From the NCBI GenBank assembly GCA_037043015.1, contig CM073324.1, positions 25,002,097 through 25,066,096 of the forward strand: DNA of 64,000 nucleotides, in the 5' to 3' direction. Positions 2,962-49,516 of the stretch are shown here, piece by piece. Below the pieces are notes generated by a model. That model was not told the DNA's origin. It saw only the letters and a program-made list of their open reading frames with translations, and ran no database searches. Made by a program: the position numbers and the translations under genes. The DNA comes from Bryum argenteum. Lineage: Eukaryota; Streptophyta; Bryopsida; Bryales; Bryaceae. Each line of letters opens with the position of its first letter. The first letter of the stretch is position 1.

Positions 2962-3299
2962 TTAACTCCTAAACGCCTGAGATGACCCGAGGGGTCATAT
3001 TCCAATAGAATCTCCTCTGTAGCTCTCAATGTACTCAACTTTTCACTTATATTTTGATGTCAAACTGGTCACCTTCTTTTGATGCATTCAAAAAGTGAAA
3101 TTTTAGAATTAAATCACAATTTGTATGAGTGATTTTGTGCTTTGAAAGGATTGTGATAGGTAGGTTGGGGTTGTACATAACCTTGTAGGAGGTTGCAAGC
3201 TCATCATTGAGTGGATCATTCATGATGCCCAAGTCCAAAAGATGCTGTGATCCAATACTGGGCTGCCCAAATCCGTATAGCCTGACGTTTAAGGGTTAA
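2962..3299. repeat. TTAA-flanked MITE, copy A
   Basis: The element begins TTAA-CTCCTAAACGCC and ends GACGTTTAAGGG-TTAA, an imperfect 12-bp terminal inverted repeat inside TTAA. About 330 bp is homologous, with scattered substitutions, to 38695-39064, including a long shared stretch with GGTAGGTTGGGGTTGTAC. A 7-bp hairpin (ATGACCC-GAG-GGGTCAT, 2982-2998) lies just inside the left end. TTAA targets and ends starting CCC fit the piggyBac superfamily; no transposase is encoded. Confidence 0.7.
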
Positions 3300-19825: not shown

Positions 19826-22208
19826 CGGTTTACACTACGCTGGAAAAGTCCGCCGGTCATGAAAAGAAGGGGAATTCTTGATTGTGATTGGTTGAGACCG
19901 TGCTTCTTGACCGGTGGGTGTTTACACTAGGTGAAGAAAGCAATGGTGGTGAAGAATTCTGATGGATGATAAAATGACATGGCCACCTATGTGGAGGCAC
20001 TTTCTAAAGAAAGAGTTCTCCGAAGGTGGATTTTTTTGTCCGGCCTCAAGAATACAGACAAGAAATCACTGTTCTGGAGAACACCAATTAAAATTTTAAA
20101 ATATGTATTTAAAGCACATTTACTATAGAGGGCAGAGTTATTATAAGAAAATGAACACTGTAAAAAGGGAATAAAGTCGGATTTCAAGGACATCACTATT
20201 TTGAGAGTATAAAAAATACCCCATTTGAGCATGACTGTTTGTAATTTTTTTCACCTCGTGATGCCCCCATGCGCATGCGGTTGCACTTCATAACCATACA
20301 TATCATTTGTGTTGAACCAATTAATCAGTACATGATCATTTTTTTTTCCCATCTCTATCTATGTGAATTTTATTTAATTAAAAGAGAGGTGAAATTAGTA
20401 AATTATGTTTTTATATTCCTCATACGTTCCTAATTGAATGTATGTTATTGTTTGTAGAAAGAATGAGGTTTTGTTTAAACTATAAAGTTTACTTCACCTC
20501 ATGGTATTGAAATGGATAATTGAAGTTTTCTAGTAAATTACGAATATGCATTTGAATTTGTAAATGATAGGATTTTGTTTCGTACTTAAAAGTTTTATGG
20601 TTTTTGAGGCAAAGTTATTATTTGGTCCACTGTTGGATTCTAATGTTTTTGTTGGGACCAATTTGGATCTATTTTTTGTAATAGAAACCTCGATATTATC
20701 CAAGATGTAAGGAAGACAGTTATAGCATTCATTTTTGTGCAAGGAGCCTAGTTGTGAACATTTTTTCTTTTGTAAGTTTTTAAGCAATTTTCACCATTGT
20801 AAAGTCAATTTTCCGCAAACAAAATTTTATCATGGATTTTTTCCTAATACATTATGAGCTTACAATATTTGAGGCCTCATGACTAAAAATTTTACCCATG
20901 TGATGTACAATATCTCTACTACAAAATTGTATGGTTGATGTTTGAGAAACTTCAACTTTTTCTCATTTACGATGTTTTTTTTAAGGATGTGTTCTTTTTG
21001 CTACAAATGAGTCAAACTATTTGGGGGTTAACATCCAAGAAAACATTTGTTTCTTAAATGAGTTTAAAATTGACAAAAAATTTGGTAATTTTTTGAAAAG
21101 TTGTATAGACTTGAACACAATATTACCATGTGATGTCATTTAAGTATTTGAAAGTAATGATGTATCAAAAAGTTGTTATTTACAACACGATTGATATGCA
21201 AATTGAAACAAAGTTAAATCAAATTGTCATACATATATATTTCAATTTTTCATGAACACAATTTTTGATCAATTTTTTTTAAACAATGTACATGTAAGGA
21301 AATATAGTTTTTCTTATCATAGCTACCTTTCACCATTTGGTAAACTTCTCTTCACTGGTGGACTTCTCCGGTGAAAATTCTCTTTTAGGTGTTTAGACTA
21401 CAACCGGTTAAGACTCCTTAAAAAAAAAAAAAAATTATTGCCTTTAATTCTTCTCCGGTACATTCACCACTTACCAAGACCTCCGGTTGGTCAAGAATGC
21501 TTGGCCAAGACATGGTCATAAGACCAAGTGGGAACATACCTCAATACGCTCATATTCCAAAGATTCCATTTTATACCAAGAAGGGGTATTAAGATGCCCA
21601 AAGGCACAAGAAAATTTTATCTCTCAAAGCCCAAAAGTTTTAATAGTGGTCTTTGTGAGGTGAGGTAGGTGGCTCAATAACGGCTCAAATTTCATAGTAT
21701 CAAGCTCATGGGGGGAAGTCCTGCAAAACTATTTTGAAAGATCTATGTGCAAAGTATATAGAAATTAAGACCGTATTAGATTTATTTTAAATTAGTTCTA
21801 AGTTCTAGAAGTTGAACCCATAGATGAACCTAAAACCGTAATGTCTAAATGTACACAATAAGTACATTGAAAACTGAAAGTGGAAGCTTAAATGTATCCC
21901 TAGCTTGAATGCCCTAGGAACTTATTAGTATCATATGGATTTTAAGCCAGCTATCGTCATGTTTTATCTTCTTGAGAAAAGATATGAGGTTCTACTCTGT
22001 TATAATTTTCAATAAATGCAAAAAAGTAGAACTAGTGTAAAATAATAACACATGTAATGGCATATAAGGATTGTTTGTTAAAAAAATTGGGCATTGGGCA
22101 TTGAGGGGATAAGCCAATTTAGAGCATTATCAATATAGAACCATGAAGGTGGTCGTTTATCATAAAATTATGCTTGATATAACCCTTCCAAATTTGATCC
22201 CCAAAGTC
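19826..22208. other. AT-rich repeat-like tract, no gene
   Basis: Strongly AT-rich sequence with no long open frame. The motif GTTTACACTA occurs at about 19829 and 19919, and a related GTTTAGACTA near 21395. Inverted similarity between TTCTTGACCGG near 19904 and its complement near 21488 hints at a decayed inverted-repeat element, but the ends cannot be fixed. A run of about 14 A lies at 21421-21434. Confidence 0.35.
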
Positions 22209-22209
22209 C

Positions 22210-22658
22210 TTGATATCCATAAAGATAGAAGTGATTCTTAATCTTGAGCCTCCTACTACGGTTAAGGGAGGTATTCAACGAGTATGGAGACATTTTGGAT
22301 GGTATAGAGATATCATGTTAAATTATGCCACGCTGGCCATTCCACTCACCAATCCCACATGCAAGGATGTTAAGTTTGTGTGGATCTCACACTTCAAGAA
22401 GTTCTTTATGCTCTTAGAGCCAAGTTGACATCTTTCCCTTGCCTTGTTGCGCCACATTGGGAGAAGCCCTTCCACGTGTATTGTGATGCATTGGTCCTGG
22501 CCGTTCGAGCTACATTGTGTCAAGCTCGTGGTCCTGAAAACAAGGACCATCCTATCGCTTTTGCTAATAGGCAATTGACAGTTTCAAAGCGGAATTATTC
22601 CACCACAAATTTTAATAGGAGTGTAGTCTTAGCGGTAAACAACTTGACCCAATCATAA
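22210..22658 (+). pseudogene. Ty3/gypsy pol relic (RT end to RNase H)
   Basis: Two overlapping frames read as the junction between reverse transcriptase and RNase H of a Ty3/gypsy polyprotein. The first has a motif like the FLGL..YYR..I.NYA..A.PLT stretch (seen as RHFGWYRDIMLNYATLAIPL), then VKFVW. The second contains KPFHVYCDAL and IAFANRQLTVSKRNYST, matching the RNase H start (F.l.tDAS) and the SRKL...E.NY motif. A frame change near 22400 and internal stops show it is dead. No LTRs, integrase or gag were found nearby. Confidence 0.7.
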
Positions 22659-22929
22659 GTGTTTTGAAGGTAAGGCAAGAATTTGAGTGCAAGGGGTGTA
22701 GTTCTCGACTACTTTTCATCTGTAAACATTTTAGCAATTTGCACAATTGCAAGCTACTACTTAAGACAAGAATTTATTTATGTTTTTTTTGGGAGGCGGG
22801 TGTTATTGAGATGAAGGTGAACAACCTTGTACATGGTGAAATTTTCATTGCAACTGATCTATTGGTAGCATTTCCACTAAACCCTAAACCACTAGTGAAA
22901 ATGATGAAATTTTGTAGTCTAGTTTGAGG

Positions 22930-23720
22930 ACTAATATGTTATGATCTTCCAATCTATGACGCTTGATGACTCATATTCTGGTCCACATGACCTACTATAA
23001 ATCTACTACAACTTTGTAGTGTTAAGATTTGAACAAGTTATCTTTGCATACTCTTGCAACTAGATTTTCTAACTTGCTCAAATGAGAGATTTCACTCATT
23101 GATCAAACAGAGAATTACAACAATGTTAACCCCTAAACATCCATGCCATTTTTTTGTCAAAAAACATGGTGTTCTGATGACTTCATAGACAAAAATGGAA
23201 GTAAGTTATTTAGATCTCGACCGTACAATCTTGTAAGAAATTTAGTGTAGGTCATGTGGGTCAAATTTGGAGTCATGGGGCCTTTTAGATTGCAAGATCG
23301 TAATGCATTTGTGCTCAAAATAGATTATTGAATTTTAGCATTTTCACTTTGAAGTGAAAAATAATACTATCAACAAACCAATTGCAATCAAACAATAAAG
23401 TTGTTTACCTTCATTTCAGAAACACTATTAAAGAGGGGAAAAAAAAAATAAAAAAAAATAAAAAAATAAAAAAATTACATGGCTCAAATAATAGCCTTGC
23501 AATGGTGAAAAATTTACAAATGAGGAAGAATAGTCCAAATCTGAACATTGTGCACTGAAATCCATGCCATGTCTTCAAAAAATATTGTCTTCAAGATTTC
23601 TGAAAAAAGAACTAGACTTGAATCGGATTCCAGTCCAAAAACTAAAAATTGAAATCTAACAGTGGATATAAGAGAAAGAACTCCTCAAAGACCATGTTTT
23701 TTCTGCCTCGGGTTTTTCGA
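22930..23720. repeat. Interspersed repeat family R3, copy 1
   Basis: Shares diverged blocks with 24470-25440 and 42720-43720. The clearest is around 23196-23310: a TTAGATCTC..GTACAATCTTGTA start, then GTGGGTCAAATTTGGAGTCATG and GATTGCAAGATCGTAATG. It holds a TTAACCCCTAAA motif at 23126, like the ends of TTAA elements elsewhere in the window. No coding capacity is visible. Confidence 0.55.
23438..23477. repeat. A-rich low-complexity run
   Basis: Runs of A broken by single T residues, inside repeat family R3. A similar A-rich run occurs at the matching place of copy 3 (about 43463-43512). Confidence 0.6.
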
Positions 23721-24469
23721 CCCAAAAATGCTTAGGGGTTGTATTTGTACTCTACACTAAACGAAATTGAGATTGTCAATTTTGAAATTGGTTTTATCAG
23801 GTTCAATTCTAATAGTAATTTTTAATAATCACTGACCAAGTTTTCTCAGTTGTACAATTGCATCTAATTTAGAAATGTGCACCAAGTCTTATCATGTACC
23901 TCCCCTTTTGTTTTAACCCCTAAAGTCTAAAAGAGCTATATTCTTGGGCAATGGTTCGTGGCAGCTACCAAGGAGGCACCTAGAATCCGTGGGGACCTCC
24001 CAAGGCTGTTTTTGATAATTTTGAATTCAAATTTGAGGTCTGCGACCCCAAGTTACCCTTGAAGCCTACTCCTTGGCATTTAATGTCTATACATCAAAAA
24101 ATTAGGGGGCTCATTACCCCTCCTCCATCCTCCTTGGTAGCTGCTACGAACTCTTACCCTATATTCTTGTTGTTTAGCCTTTGGTCACCCTCGGGTATAC
24201 TCAACTATTTAGCAATGAAGTTCCAACCGTTAAAGATAGTCGAATTTTCCCATAAATTCCAAGAAGACCACTCTTGCTTTATAGTTCTTTACGGATTAGG
24301 GCTTATTAATTTCCGAACTTTAAAAATGTGATTGGGACAAGGTGAAAGTTTCCTAAAACAATAGTAAATTCTTAACTATCATCCAAATTGGTTTAAGAAT
24401 ATAACAATGCTAGATTCTTCACTAATTTGCCAAAACCTAGATTTTACATTTTTTTAGGTTTCTGAACAT
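23721..24469. other. Intergenic between R3 copies, no gene seen
   Basis: AT-rich DNA with an unpaired TTAACCCCTAAAG motif at 23913. The 90-codon frame at 24059-24331 has no recognisable domain. Confidence 0.35.
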
Positions 24470-25440
24470 GACGAACTATGGTCTATGGCGTGTTTTGGAC
24501 ATCCAGATTCTTGAAACAACAAATTTTCATCTACCTTTTTGATTGTCAAAACTGGCCTTTCAAAGTCAGTTATTTGAATCTTAATTTGAAGTAGATTTTT
24601 GAAGGTTATGTGAGTAGAATCTAGAGTCATGAGGCCTTATAGATTGCAAGATCGTAACGTATTTATACTAAAGAATAAATTACATAATTTCATTAATTTC
24701 ACCTTGAGGTTGGACTTTTACTTCAAAGTGAAGTCTTCCACTTTCAAAATGAAGAAAACATATTGCAAAGAAAAATTCACGGACTAGAAAGTTGTTCACC
24801 TTCTCTCAATAACACACTTGTATCAAATAGATTCATAAAACAGAAAATCTTGGCTCAAGTAATAGCCTTGCATCGGTAAAAAGAGCTCCAAACTACTTTC
24901 GTAAAAAAGTCTAAAATTAGACCCTTGCACTAGAATGCATGTGTTGTCTTCCTCATATCTTGGATAGATTTAACCCCTAAAGGCCCGAGTGGTTTGGAGA
25001 AAAACTCAGGTGTGTTATAACATATGAATTCTATAACTTTTATGATGTAGCGCTCCAAAAATAGTATAAATCCATCCCATAAATTAAAGTTAAAATCCAA
25101 TAGTCGATGATGGAGATACAACTTTTCAAAATCATCCATTTTTTTATTTTTTCATTGTAGAAACATCATTGGAAATCGAATACCAAAAGTATTTGGATTA
25201 GGATCTTCCGACTAAAAAGTTCTTAAGTTTCATCTTGACATCATGATTAAGCAAAAAAATATCATGAAAAAATATTGTTGGTTTCACAAGATAGACTTAC
25301 ATTGGTAAAACATGAACCATGTTTGAGAACCCAAAAACGAAATCTTCCTTCACTAAAATGCATGCCATTAAACTTATATTTGAATTATGTGGGTCTGAAA
25401 TATTTTACCACACGAGCCTAATTGACTCTACATTTTCTTG
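24470..25440. repeat. Interspersed repeat family R3, copy 2
   Basis: Matches copy 1 around 24600-24660 (GAGTCATGAGGCCTTATAGA, then GCAAGATCGTAACG) and copy 3 around 25150 (CATTGTAGAAACATCATTG). An unpaired TTAACCCCTAAAGG motif lies at 24970. Substitutions and indels are frequent, so the insertion is old. Confidence 0.55.
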
Positions 25441-27010: not shown

Positions 27011-27012
27011 AC

Positions 27013-27232
27013 TACACTAAATAGGTAGATTAGTGTTAAATTTTTATAAGATTTGAAAATGCTACAAGTTTTTACTTTTGGTCAAAAAATTTACCAAGAG
27101 TATTGATTCCAATACTATGTAAGGATCCCCATCTTGACCATTGTAAAGGGTAAAAATATTGACTAACAGTAAAAACCTATAGCCTATTAATGTAAATTAG
27201 TGTATCTGACACTAATCTACCTATTTAGTGTA
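27013..27232. repeat. TA-flanked MITE with perfect inverted ends
   Basis: Bases 27012-27036 and 27209-27233 are perfect 25-base inverted repeats (left end CTACACTAAATAGGTAGATT). The interior is AT-rich and non-coding. Reading the target duplication as TA makes the ends CACTAAATAGG, which fits the Tc1/mariner-type (Stowaway-like) pattern; the assignment rests only on the TA and the TIR. Perfect ends suggest a fairly recent insertion. Confidence 0.75.
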
Positions 27233-27233
27233 G

Positions 27234-34924: not shown

Positions 34925-35157
34925 TTAACCCCTAAAGGTCTGAGCGTGCCGTGGCGACCAGTAGAATACGATGTATTTTGGTTGTATTTGGAGTGAATGC
35001 ACACCTTTAATGGCTTTAAGTTCAAAGAAGAAGTTGACATTTGAACTAATGCGGTTTTAGTGAGCTATTACGATTCCATTTTAGAGTTTCTTGTTGGTAG
35101 CAAATCCTTATTATACGACAGCGTACATACTATCCCCAAGGGACTTTTAAGGGTTAA
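34925..35157. repeat. TTAA element module C
   Basis: Begins TTAA-CCCCTAAAGGTC and ends GACTTTTAAGGG-TTAA, a 12-bp inverted repeat with two mismatches inside TTAA. It may be a separate 233-bp element or the left part of a longer copy that ends near 35652. Confidence 0.6.
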
Positions 35158-35687: not shown

Positions 35688-36509
35688 TTAACCCCTAAAG
35701 TTTCAAGGCACCATTTGCATGTTTTACCCTCAAATAAACATCTTTTCAGTGCAAAGTAAGAATCTTTATTTGATAGTGTATTTGAAGTATGTAACTACAG
35801 GATCCAATACTTAACTTGTACAAGATCATGTACGCAAAACTTTAAAACAAATTTCCTCACCCAGTTGCAAGATTGTAAGGTTTGAAGTTGATAAAGAAGT
35901 CTTTCTCGCTTGTTGTGAAAAGGAAAGGCAATGTTTTGAGGGCCAAAAATACCATTGTGAGAAGTAAATATGAATCGAGGCTCTTTTAATTATTGTTCCT
36001 AGGTGAGTTTGGAATATGTTGATGCAATTTTACTCTCATACAACCTATAAAGCTTAATTAAATGCTTGATTATTCACATGGAGATTCAAATACAAAGGCA
36101 GGTCTATGACAACAAATAAGGCATGTGAAAAATAATTGAATTGAAAATTTGAGCGGTGAGATCATGCCTTAAAACCTTATTTACATGTACAAAAAGCAAA
36201 ACTCAAAAAAAGTAACTCAATTTTTGGTGAATTCTAAAAGCTTCCGCAGTCTAATTAATTTTGTGCACATTTTGAGGACATATGAGCATAGACTTTAGTT
36301 AGGGCAAATATCTAATAGTGCTCTCAAATCTTGAATATGCATATCTCCTAAAGTTTGAGGATTTTGGAGGCTTGTAATGACTTTTCAAAAAGTTATAGAA
36401 AAACTCTACAACATGCATAATGTTTCAAATGTATACGAACTAAAAACAGTAATTGAGAGGCTAAGAGTCAAATCAGCCCAAAACGGGCCTCACGATACTT
36501 TAGGAGTCA
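35688..36509. repeat. TTAA-type repeat family R2, copy 1
   Basis: Starts TTAA-CCCCTAAAGTTTC; the right end GATACTTTAGGAG is its inverted match with two mismatches, although the right TTAA has decayed. Most of the interior matches 48700-49420, for example GGCAATGTTTTGAGGGCC, CGAGGCTCTTTTAATT and AAATGCTTGATTATTCACA. Confidence 0.55.
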
Positions 36510-38694: not shown

Positions 38695-39064
38695 TTAACC
38701 CTTAAACGCCCAAGCAAGCCCGAGGGGCTTGATTCCAACATAATCTTCCCTGTAGCTCTCATTGTACTCAACTTTTCACTTATATTTTGATGTCAAACTC
38801 GTCATCGTCTTATGATGCATTCAAAAAGTGAAATTTTACAATTCAAATCACAATTTGTATGAATGATTTTGTGCTTTGAAAGGATTGTGGTAGGTAGGTT
38901 GGGGTTGTACAAAGCCTTGTAGGAGGTTGCAAGCTCATCATTGATTGGTCCATTCATGATGCCCAAGTTCAAAAAGTGCACTATTCATGATGCCCAAGTC
39001 CAAAAGATGTTGTGATCCAATTCTGGGCTGCCCGTTTTAGACCCCAAGGGCATTCAAGGGTTAA
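38695..39064. repeat. TTAA-flanked MITE, copy B
   Basis: Begins TTAA-CCCTTAAACGCC and ends GGCATTCAAGGG-TTAA (10 of 12 terminal bases pair). It is homologous to copy A (2962-3299) along its whole length but has an extra partial duplication near its right side (ATTCATGATGCCCAAGT occurs twice). A subterminal hairpin CAAGCCC-GAG-GGGCTTG lies at 38715-38731. Confidence 0.75.
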
Positions 39065-39517: not shown

Positions 39518-39785
39518 TTAATCCCTAAATCTCCTTGTTGCAAAACAGTCTAAGTCACAAAATTTGACCTTCCCTTAGATTAAGCTCAAAAAATCTCAAT
39601 CTAAGCAATATTTGAAGGATTCAACCGTAAGATCTCAAAGTTCACTTAACATTCTTCTCACATACCAAATTTGAACCGTTCATTCTTTCTAATTTGTGAG
39701 ATTATAATGGTCAAAGTTGGCTGAGTTTTTCTCCTGCAGGAACCTGCAAGACCCGTTTCGGGTTCTAAGGGGAGTTAGGGGTTAA
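39518..39785. repeat. Candidate TTAA element
   Basis: TTAA-TCCCTAAATCTCC at the left and GGGGAGTTAGGGG-TTAA at the right pair at 10 of 13 bases. A hairpin AGACCCG-TTT-CGGGTTCT lies just inside the right end (about 39749-39766), as in copies A, B and D. Pairing of these two ends is plausible, not certain. Confidence 0.45.
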
Positions 39786-42719: not shown

Positions 42720-43720
42720 GAATGAATAGTCTTAGAAATTTTTTATCAACTCTTTGCATACTCACTCCGCCATTCTTGATTTAAATGGTTTAACTCATTG
42801 GTAGACAAAATAACACATTCCAAGAAGAATTGTTATAAATGGAAACGAAGGTAAGTTAGTTAGATCTCAATTGTACAATCTTGTAGTAGAGATATTGTAC
42901 ATCATGTGGGTCAAATTTTGAGTCATGAGGCCTCACAGATTGCAAGATCATATTGTATTAGTACAAGCTCATCAAAAAAGCTCTCAACATTTTCACTTTG
43001 AAGTGAAAATGTTGCTGATATAATCAAAAAAATTCACCAACTACGAAGATGTTTACTTTCATTTCAGTAACACCCTTGAACGAAAGAAACCTTTACAAAA
43101 ATTTCTTTGAGCAAGTAATGACCTTGCAATGGTGAGAACTACCAAAAAGTTTATGTTAAAGGAAAAATAGTCCAAAACTCAACCATATGCACTCAAATCT
43201 ATGCCTTATCTTTGCTACATCTTCGATTTTGTCAAGGTTTTTACCACGTAACTAGACTCAAATTGGAAACCATCCCAAAAAACAAAAGTCAAAATCTAAC
43301 ACTTGATGAAGGAGATATAGTTCCTCAAGAATCATCCATTATTTACTTTTTTCATTGTAGAAACATCATTGCTCATCCAATTGCTCATCATTGTTAATTG
43401 GATAAAAAAAAATCCCAATAGAGAGTTGTTAACCTTCATCTTAAGATCATGATTCTATGGGGAAAAAAATAAAAAAATAAAAAAATAATTAAAAGATAAT
43501 TTTAAAAAAACATTTTTTTTGAATTCCCATTACTACCTTATAAGGATAAAACGAGCCCCATGTTTGAAAATTCAAAAACAAGAGCTACCTTCACAAATAT
43601 GCATGCCAATTAGTCTTACTTTATTTTACAGGTTTGCAATTTTTTTATCACACAAACTAGACTTGATTTGGGACCCATTCCAAGTAACTTCATTCAAAAC
43701 AGATTCTAGATGGAGAAGTC
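42720..43720. repeat. Interspersed repeat family R3, copy 3
   Basis: Matches copies at 22930 and 24470: GTTAGATCTCAATTGTACAA, then CATGTGGGTCAAATTTTGAG and CATTGTAGAAACATCATTG. The 43519-43920 frame running through it shows no domain. Confidence 0.55.
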
Positions 43721-43781: not shown

Positions 43782-43862
43782 TCAACCCTTAAACGCCCCA
43801 AGCATGCCCATCGGGCTTGCTTTTTGGTGTATTTTCAGAGAGGCTGAGAGTTTAAGGGTTAA
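43782..43862. repeat. Short TTAA element, copy D (81 bp)
   Basis: Left TCAA-CCCTTAAACGCC and right GAGTTTAAGGG-TTAA are inverted repeats; the left TTAA has one substitution. A subterminal hairpin (AGCATGCCC-ATC-GGGCTTGCT, one mismatch, 43801-43821) sits four bases inside the left end, as in copies A and B. It looks like a minimal, internally deleted member of the A/B family. Confidence 0.65.
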
Positions 43863-44382
43863 GGAGCGTGCACCTTCGGGATGGGGCAGAGCCCTCCCCC
43901 TCACGGGTAGGACTCCTTAAAACCAAGAATGCCCTTGTGAGTATGCTTTACTCATGCAAAATATATAAAAGCACCTACAAAGTATCTAGCTAGTAGACAT
44001 GAATGTAAGTTAGTGAAGATTCGATCACCACTTATGAAGAATTTTGCATGATTTCTTGGTGGCATATACGGATAGAGGTTTGGATACAACACCACCGGAA
44101 AAGAGATATATTCTCCATAACCTTGGCCCGGACTTTTGTCTGACTTTGCCATACATGGCATAGTCTTTCCTTTTATATATTTTCTTAATGCAGTAATGGA
44201 GACCCTCAAATTTAGTCAAAAACAAAAGAGAAAAATATCTACTTTAGATCTTTCAAACATGATTTCACAAATTGCTGTAAGTGGTATATGATCACATAAT
44301 CTCCATGTACAGTAGATGAACCGACCACTTTTGGCACAAATATAGAAGTACCCACTTTGCAAAGGAACTAACCTCAATTTCG
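43863..44382. other. Intergenic, no gene seen
   Basis: The first 60 bases (GGGGCAGAGCCCTCCCCCTC) resemble the sequence just left of copy A (2935-2960), so this may be extra family sequence. The rest is AT-rich without a domain-bearing frame. Confidence 0.35.
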
Positions 44383-45331
44383 TTAACCCTTTCATGACCA
44401 ATCAACCAAATATGGTCGCTGAAGTGTGGTTATTCCATGATTGAGTAGAATCTGTGTAGAAACAACAAAATGTTAGAGAACAATGTCGGAAGAGGAGTGT
44501 GTGTTGGATCTATTACACAAAACAACGATGCATTTGGACTTGTACTCCGCCTGGTAGAGCTGTCTATACATGGTGATGAGTATGAAATATGGTAGCTGGT
44601 CTGGAAAGAAGTGAGAAAGATTCACGAAATACGGCTGTCGAGTACACATGACACCAATTCTAAGGGTCCCTTGGGAACATGGGAACATGGGGGTACTACT
44701 CAATTGGCTCCGTCGACAAAAGAAGAGTTGATTTCTTTTGGCAACCCAACACCGTCTATCAAAGCGTATACATTTGTAGAACCTCAAATCCTCCCCAAAA
44801 AGAATCAACCACATGTTGTTTGCACACTGATTCTACGTCAAGGCTCGGCGTCTGATGAATGTGACCATGTCTGATTTTTCAATCTGACCATATTTGCTAC
44901 GATATTTCATGTATTTCTCGTACGCTATCGTATACAAGGAACTGGGTTCTTCGTCTCTTTTCACAATTTCAGTTTCATAAATGCTGGAAATGTAACGCTC
45001 ATGGTGTTGTTGGATAGATCTTTAAACTCTCTACAATATTGACCACATGTGTTTTGCCCAAATGTGGATATTCTGGTCTCTAATTCTAGTAAAAAGCTTC
45101 AAGGTCATGTATACGCTATGTACTACACTTGACTCGGAACATCATAATACTCTAGTTCATACGGTAGATCTGACCCATGTTTGGCCACTAGCATGAATAT
45201 GAAGTTCACTACACATTTATACGGTCGGATCTTAATTTTGACCCTTCATTTGTTCGATGCACTCCAAAATACATCCAAACACCTCAAAAAAACCTCGACT
45301 TCCAAAACAGGATTGGTCATGAAAGGGTTAA
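44383..45331. mobile_element. piggyBac-like element with perfect 17-bp TIRs
   Basis: TTAA (44383-44386) is followed by CCCTTTCATGACCAATC (44387-44403); the right end (45311-45327) is its perfect reverse complement and is followed by TTAA (45328-45331). TTAA duplication plus termini starting CCC are diagnostic features of the piggyBac superfamily. The interior of about 907 bases has only short frames (longest 113 codons on the minus strand, 44473-44814), and I could not recognise the DDD catalytic domain, so it is best read as non-autonomous or decayed. Its right TTAA is also the left TTAA of the next element, so one of them inserted into the other's border. Confidence 0.75.
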
Positions 45332-46165
45332 CCCCGGAAGGTCCAAGAAAGCGGATTGTGCTTTTTGCGATATTGGGCAGCCTAGATGGAGGGGTTAAAA
45401 GTAATATTTGTGCCTAAGATTTTTACTGGGTGATCCGTGTATTGCAAAGTATATGTAGTAAAATTTGCAAAGCTTGGATCCAATTTTGAAACCTTCATGT
45501 AGAAACTTTAGGTTTCAAGTCCAAATTTTTAGATTTCTTTTTGGAAGTTTTTTCATTACCAAATCATTATTCAAGTTCCAAAGTGACCTAAGTCAAAAGT
45601 TTTGTGGATGTCACAAGGGCAGCCTCCAAAAATTACAAAAACAAAGTCCACAATTTCTAGTAGTTTCCGAATTATTTCTTACAAAGCTTGTCAAAAAACA
45701 AGATTTTAGTTTTTTCCCATTTTTTTGATTTTTTATTTTTTTCTTGAAATTCAAAAACTCATATAGGCAAATTAATTATATCCAATGAAATGCATGTTTT
45801 ACTATGTTGTTGATTTTAGACCTTCTTCTAAAAAATAATTTGCATGAAGGTTAAAAAAGTGGAATGAGTCCACTACAATTTTGCACAAGCAAAATGTTCG
45901 GAGTAAGAATCATCAAGTCTCCCTAAGACTATGTTTTTCAGGCAAAGCCTAAAAAACATAACCTTCAGTCAACTTTGAACATCATGATCTTACAATTGGT
46001 ATAGAATCAACGGTTGAAAATTTAATTGAAAGTAGTAAGATCTTACGGTTGAAAAAAACAAAAATAGTAAATCAAATTGAATCATACCTCAACTTGTACA
46101 AGGTGGTCAAAAATTCACAATTTTTGATTTAGGAGGTTCAAGAACCCTTGGACCTGTAGGGTTAA
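45328..46165. repeat. Repeat family R4, copy 2 (TTAA element)
   Basis: Begins TTAA-CCCCGGAAGGTCCAAG and ends CTTGGACCTGTAGGG-TTAA; the ends are inverted repeats of 15-16 bases with three differences, one of them a gap. The body matches 35154-35560 (copy 1). An internal GGGG-TTAAAAGTAAT at 45391-45405 marks the boundary of a 71-bp left module. Confidence 0.65.
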
Positions 46166-48699: not shown

Positions 48700-49420
48700 A
48701 GTTAAAAGTCAACTAGCCTCGAAGCTGTCGTACACTCTCAAAAACTGCCTTCCTTCAAAGTAAAGTGAAAACTCTCAACTTTTGACTAAATTTCTTATAT
48801 GTAACCATAGGATTCAGTACCTTACTTGTGTGTGTATGTGTGTATGTGTGTATCAAATCTTGAATTCAAATTCCTCATCGATTTCCGAGATCGTGAAGTT
48901 CAATGTGGCGAACGACTGTTTCTTTCCTTGTTGTAGAAAGGGTGTGCAATGTTTCGAGGGCCGAAACGACCATTTCGGGAAGTGGAGATGAACTAAGGCT
49001 CTTCTCATTCTTTTTCTTAGGTAAGTTGGGAATATGTCTATGCAATTTTTACCCTCATAGGACATACAAAATTCATTGAAATGCTTGATTATACACACGG
49101 AGTTTTAAAATTCAATACAAAGGCTGGTCTTTGATAATAGAAAAGGCAATGTAAGAACTTATTGCATTGGACATGTCTGGTACCTTTTCTACATGTACTA
49201 GAAACAAAACTTGAAAGTGAAGATCTCAATTTTTGGTGAATATTTTCTGCAATTTAATTGATTTAGACACATTTTGAGAATAAATGAGCACATACCGTAT
49301 ATTTGAGCATATTTTACTATACTTTGACTGCAAATATCTCCTAAGTGTGAGGAATCTTAAATCATGAATGATTTTTTGAAAGGTATAGAAAAACTCTACA
49401 ACCTCCGAAAGGATTGAGTT
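48700..49420. repeat. Repeat family R2, copy 2
   Basis: Homologous to about 35750-36420: GTGCAATGTTTCGAGGGCC, CTAAGGCTCTTCTCATT, GAAATGCTTGATTATACACA and TATAGAAAAACTCTACAAC. Divergence is substantial. No clean terminal repeats were found. Confidence 0.55.
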
Positions 49421-49516
49421 TTATTCTTTTTGCTCAACCCTTTTAACTTCTATCTAAATTGAGTAAGTAGAGGCTCACCAATCCCTAATCAACGTTGCCT
49501 CCATCTTCATTAGAGG

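Follow-up and report, generated by a model that had tools for sequence, protein, structure and literature searches.

A TTAA-bounded element with perfect 17-bp inverted ends in the land plant Bryum argenteum, a probable non-autonomous piggyBac-type transposon

The piggyBac superfamily is best known from animals, where it has been studied in depth. The termini of piggyBac transposons are described as 5'-CC..GG-3' (PMC10045372). In beetle piggyBac elements, CCCT or CCCTTT is given among the conserved 5' motifs, together with a TTAA duplication and terminal inverted repeats (TIRs) of up to 26 bp (PMC12732532), and CCCTT is reported as the most conserved piggyBac motif in small animal genomes (PMC10813416). 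Exceptions are described from bees, with CAC instead of CCC and with duplications other than TTAA (PMC10140906). Kolobok elements also duplicate TTAA, but their ends start with RR (PMC9587614); for Kolobok/T2-MITE a TTAA target is likewise given, and frog elements are listed with AG ends (PMC6004289). Sola3 is named among the MITE superfamilies listed in PMC5199201. As for plants, the superfamilies included in a plant review comprise PiggyBac (PMC10794571). The repeat table of the fern Ceratopteris richardii gives 1230 PiggyBac elements (122417 bp) and also has Sola elements (PMC6890710), that of the grass Stipa capillata gives one PiggyBac element of 75 bp (PMC8319324), and a 2025 paper describes piggyBac as only occasional among plants and mentions red algae (PMC12732532). 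The fern and grass entries are annotation counts; neither terminal sequences nor target duplications nor empty sites are given with them in these tables. The open-licence literature searched yielded no study devoted to piggyBac in land plants, although such work may exist elsewhere. The preliminary description of the locus studied here had called the superfamily poorly documented in land plants, which is a fair statement but not an absolute one, since the fern table lists PiggyBac (PMC6890710).

We analysed a 64-kb stretch of the B. argenteum genome (hereafter the window), in which a TTAA followed by perfect 17-bp inverted ends starting with CCC had been noted at 44383-45331. These coordinates proved exact, from TTAA to TTAA (element E5; Table 1). 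Directly inside the TTAA at each edge lie the 17 nt CCCTTTCATGACCAATC, inverted at the right edge and matching at 17 of 17 positions. The whole inverted repeat is 22 nt long and 100% complementary (44382-44403 / 45311-45332), being composed of the TTAA, the 17 nt and one outer G/C pair, which may be there by chance. Similarity between the arms stops right after base 17, and the sequences beyond are unrelated. Both ends begin with CCCTTT. E5 thus has the TTAA at both edges, the 5'-CC..GG-3' termini with CCCT/CCCTTT given for piggyBac (PMC10045372, PMC12732532) and short TIRs (17 bp inside the TTAA, perfect).

Table 1 Positions of TTAA-bounded elements and related sites in the window
Feature	Position	Strand	Description
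E5	44383..45331	.	949-bp TTAA-bounded element, perfect 17-bp TIRs, no transposase found
E5 left TTAA + 17-bp end CCCTTTCATGACCAATC	44383..44403	+	
E5 right 17-bp end + TTAA	45311..45331	-	Perfect inverse of left end
E1	2962..3299	.	338-bp TTAA-bounded element, family shared with E3
E2	34925..35157	.	233-bp TTAA-bounded element; two related empty sites in window
E3	38695..39064	.	370-bp TTAA-bounded element, E1 relative
E4	39518..39785	.	Candidate 268-bp TTAA-bounded element; only basis is its ends, 11/14
E7	43782..43862	.	81-bp mini element, bounded by TCAA on the left and TTAA on the right
First E2 empty-site relative, single TTAA	45395..45398	+	Aligned stretch 45363-45473
Second E2 empty-site relative, single TTAA	49588..49591	+	

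The interior of E5 was searched through all 16 stop-to-stop ORFs of at least 40 aa that overlap it, the longest of 119 aa. A Pfam scan of the 16 ORFs gave no family above its cut-off and hence no transposase, the piggyBac-type DDD transposase (PF13843) included, in agreement with the earlier reading of the interior; E5 is therefore non-autonomous as far as visible. The first ten of these ORFs gave three weak, unrelated sub-threshold matches. Ten ORFs from the repeat-rich parts of the window likewise gave nothing above a family cut-off, and an Rfam search of the window at gathering threshold returned 0 matches. In a separate set of ten window ORFs given to Pfam, eight had domains, including an RPE65-type carotenoid oxygenase, plant self-incompatibility S1, XS, Clp protease, PP2C and a kinase. 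Among proteins of solved structure, the carotenoid enzyme is closest to a chloroplastic 9-cis-epoxycarotenoid dioxygenase (3npe, E 9.2e-187). This gene content fits a land plant, and the attribution to a plant genome made beforehand from the letters was borne out by these domains and the 3npe relative.

Compared by published description, E5 resembles non-autonomous (MITE-like) piggyBac elements in its TTAA edges, CCCTTT ends, 17-bp TIRs and an interior in which no transposase was found. It differs from described piggyBac in its host, a land plant, and in that an autonomous partner was not among the sequences examined. With Kolobok/T2-MITE it shares the TTAA edges and the short, MITE-like form (PMC6004289, PMC9587614), but E5 starts with CCC and lacks the RR terminus described for Kolobok.

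A search of the window with TTAACCCTTTCATGACC, allowing up to 3 mismatches, gave 3 matches against 0.33 expected, namely both E5 ends and the 3-mismatch end of another element at 39064; a second copy with the ends of E5 was not found by this search in the 64 kb. An empty site for E5 was not found in the window either (the best sum of left and right flank matches was 29/64, the background level), so its target duplication is read solely from its two TTAA edges. The possibility that E5 is nested in the repeat that also occurs around 49517 was considered and rejected (its left flank matches there at 4/32). Outside the window, the 21-nt and 17-nt ends of E5 gave 0 matches to viral contigs. An exact 18-nt match to an E5 end occurred in 5 bacterial contigs of a genome contig collection, which is about the number expected by chance (~7.5, from 2 x 257 Gb / 4^18).

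E5 is accompanied by other TTAA-linked ends. The window has 16 occurrences of TTAACCCYT, about one per 4 kb, whereas 50 simulated runs averaged 1.22 and never exceeded 5. For TTAACCCYTAAA there are 9 exact matches, and 17 when one mismatch is allowed; the means in 15 simulated runs were 0 and 0.87. CCCYTAAA directly follows an exact TTAA in 9 of 13 cases, with two more after TTGA and TCAA, whereas 100 simulated windows had a mean of 4.58 CCCYTAAA and at most 1 after TTAA; this test is not wholly independent, because the motif was chosen after the TTAA-anchored ends had been listed. With the looser CYCYTRAA, an exact TTAA precedes 11 of the 38 occurrences. The window also has further TTAA-bounded elements. 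E1 and E3 are 88.9% identical across 280 columns and 96% across a further 51; both start with TTAAC[TC]C[CT]TAAACGCC and finish with the inverse TTAACCCTTRAAYG. At their left TTAA, 8 of 30 positions match outside, where the two are unrelated, and 22 of 30 inside. The corresponding values at the right TTAA are 16/30 and 15/30, high identity stopping about 31 nt inside, so that this boundary is not clean, with no drop in identity across the TTAA. The first ~40 nt of E7 match the left end of E3 at 85%. E1, E3 and E7 thus form a three-member family in the window, in which E5 stands alone.

Just inside their left ends and at the same place, E1 (2982-3001) and E3 (38715-38734, both approximate) carry a perfect short hairpin. 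The hairpins have a common GAG loop and different stems (TGACCC/GGGTCA and AAGCCC/GGGCTT), and since both stems are perfect their arms have changed together. A subterminal hairpin as a feature common to the ends was rejected: perfect 6-bp stems occur in 3 of 17 ends and in 11% of background 70-nt windows.

No empty sites were found in the window for E1, E3 and E4, whereas E2, the best example, has two related ones. The flanks of E2, joined at one TTAA, align with 45363-45473 (111 columns, 69%, E 2e-8) across the lone TTAA at 45395. When the 32-nt left flank of E2 was compared with 650 TTAA site-orientations, the top sites were 45395 (23/32) and 49588 (22/32), and the next reached 17/32. Both sites had already been found through right-flank homology, the 49 kb stretch by way of the flank of E5. 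Therefore, E2 looks like an insertion into a TTAA, missing from the related copies. GGGG precedes both lone TTAA sites and resembles the right end of an element, so an older element end at these sites is possible. An unbiased empty-site scan gave 12 cases for TTAA, 30 for AATT, 8 for CATG, 6 for TGCA and more than 1000 each for ATAT and TATA, counts that do not single out TTAA because repeats give many matches for other tetramers. The other TTAA-bounded elements of the window strengthen the suspicion of a real TTAA signature.

The window contains further repeats. Diverged copies (~60-72%) of a long repeat lie in both orientations at 20597-21063, 22614-23580, 24563-25413 and 42783-43653, and within this repeat the segment 22662-23580 is itself largely palindromic. 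A repeat of ~700 bp has two copies, 35720-36434 and 48726-49424, with 67% identity. Near the former copy two ends are located, TTAACCCCTAAAG at 35688 and, on the opposite strand, CTCCTAAAG at 36506; because of these ends the repeat may represent one more TTAA element, now decayed. Another TTAACCCCTAAAG end at 23913 is followed by an imperfect palindrome (23922-24182, 60%), and 23913-24182 is possibly an old TTAA element whose right end has been lost.

It is highly improbable that the inverted repeat of E5 is due to chance or is a stray palindrome. As a null model we simulated the window 50 times with a first-order Markov chain and recorded the longest perfect, non-simple inverted repeat with a span below 3 kb; the maximum was 17 nt, against 22 nt in E5, and the repeat of E5 sits precisely at TTAA and carries CCCTTT, a piggyBac motif. 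In the real window, six inverted repeats of this sort and of at least 14 nt were found: that of E5, one of 25 nt, and four others of at most 17 nt. The 25-nt repeat belongs to a 222-bp stretch (27012-27233) with 30-nt inverted ends (93%, 25 nt perfect) that start with CTACACTAAATAGG; it is not TTAA-bounded and is another small inverted-repeat element. In favour of coincidence are the single copy of E5 in the window and the fact that inverted pairs at TTAA are no commoner than at some other tetramers: ends matching at 11 or more of 14 positions were found in 3 of 4360 TTAA pairs, 5 of 6719 CATG pairs and 3 of 13505 AATT pairs. TTAA-bounded inverted pairs are thus not enriched by count, and the 14/14 score of E5 alone stands out. 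The observation of E5 as a TTAA-bounded element with perfect TIRs is confirmed. The CCCYTAAA ends, for their part, might be scattered telomere-like motifs and not transposon ends. CCCTAAA is the plant telomere unit, it occurs 16 times in the window, and CCCCTAAA includes it. But CCCTAAACCC is absent from both strands of the window, TTAA is conserved outside CCCYTAAA, half of the ends are CCCTTAAA, and the end of E5 does not match CCCYTAAA at all, and we consider this explanation extremely improbable.

A different assignment of the element type has also to be weighed. Each TTAA contains a TA, and E5 could be read as a Tc1/mariner-type element with a TA duplication and ends starting with A, as TA-flanked ACCC..GGGT is equally symmetric and the empty site of E2 by itself cannot separate TTAA from TA. 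In the 13 CCCYTAAA motifs, which belong to other ends and not to those of E5, 12 have T as the outermost tetramer base, and the next position outward is mixed (T6 G3 C3 A1), so that conservation outside the ends spans four bases, not two; a Tc1/mariner origin is very unlikely. Sola3 is a TTAA-targeting group. E5 and its neighbours could be moved by Sola3, by Kolobok or by an undescribed plant group. TTAA is not unique to piggyBac, being used by Kolobok as well (PMC9587614, PMC6004289), Sola elements appear in the fern table (PMC6890710), and the 16 ORFs of E5 offer no transposase by which to decide the superfamily. The 5'-RR ends given for Kolobok (PMC9587614) are at variance with the pyrimidine start of E5, E1, E2, E3 and E4, a point that bears on Kolobok only and not on Sola3. 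On balance, another TTAA-targeting superfamily seems unlikely.

The reading we prefer is that E5 is likely a non-autonomous piggyBac-type cut-and-paste element in a land-plant nuclear genome, its membership of piggyBac being probable from its edges and ends, and it is best read as one of several TTAA-bounded families in the window. A piggyBac-type transposase made elsewhere and acting in trans would bind the 17-bp ends of E5, excise the element at TTAA and insert it into another TTAA. We infer that E5 was moved by such a (DDD) transposase, which would exist or have existed in this genome, and that its own target was a single TTAA. A more tentative suggestion, to which we give somewhat less than an even chance, is that the lineage has long hosted several piggyBac-type families, which would account for the density of TTAACCCYT ends in the window; their source would be an autonomous plant piggyBac that may still be working.

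The preliminary description, whose interpretation is partly supported overall, had also taken the perfect ends to imply recent mobility. This argument is weak, since 0 mismatches in 17 pairs allow an arm divergence of up to 16% (95% bound), and a living source of transposase is therefore not implied. The ends of E1 to E4 match at 10 or 11 of 14 positions and those of E5 are better kept, which fits a younger, undated insertion.

The case would extend the host range of a known kind of element. If the piggyBac reading is true, the several TTAA-bounded families of this land plant would mean that the piggyBac superfamily reached land plants and spread in them, and the choice between vertical descent and horizontal transfer would then arise. 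They would also indicate a plant-adapted transposase, which may be of practical use, as piggyBac is reported to excise seamlessly (PMC7351741).
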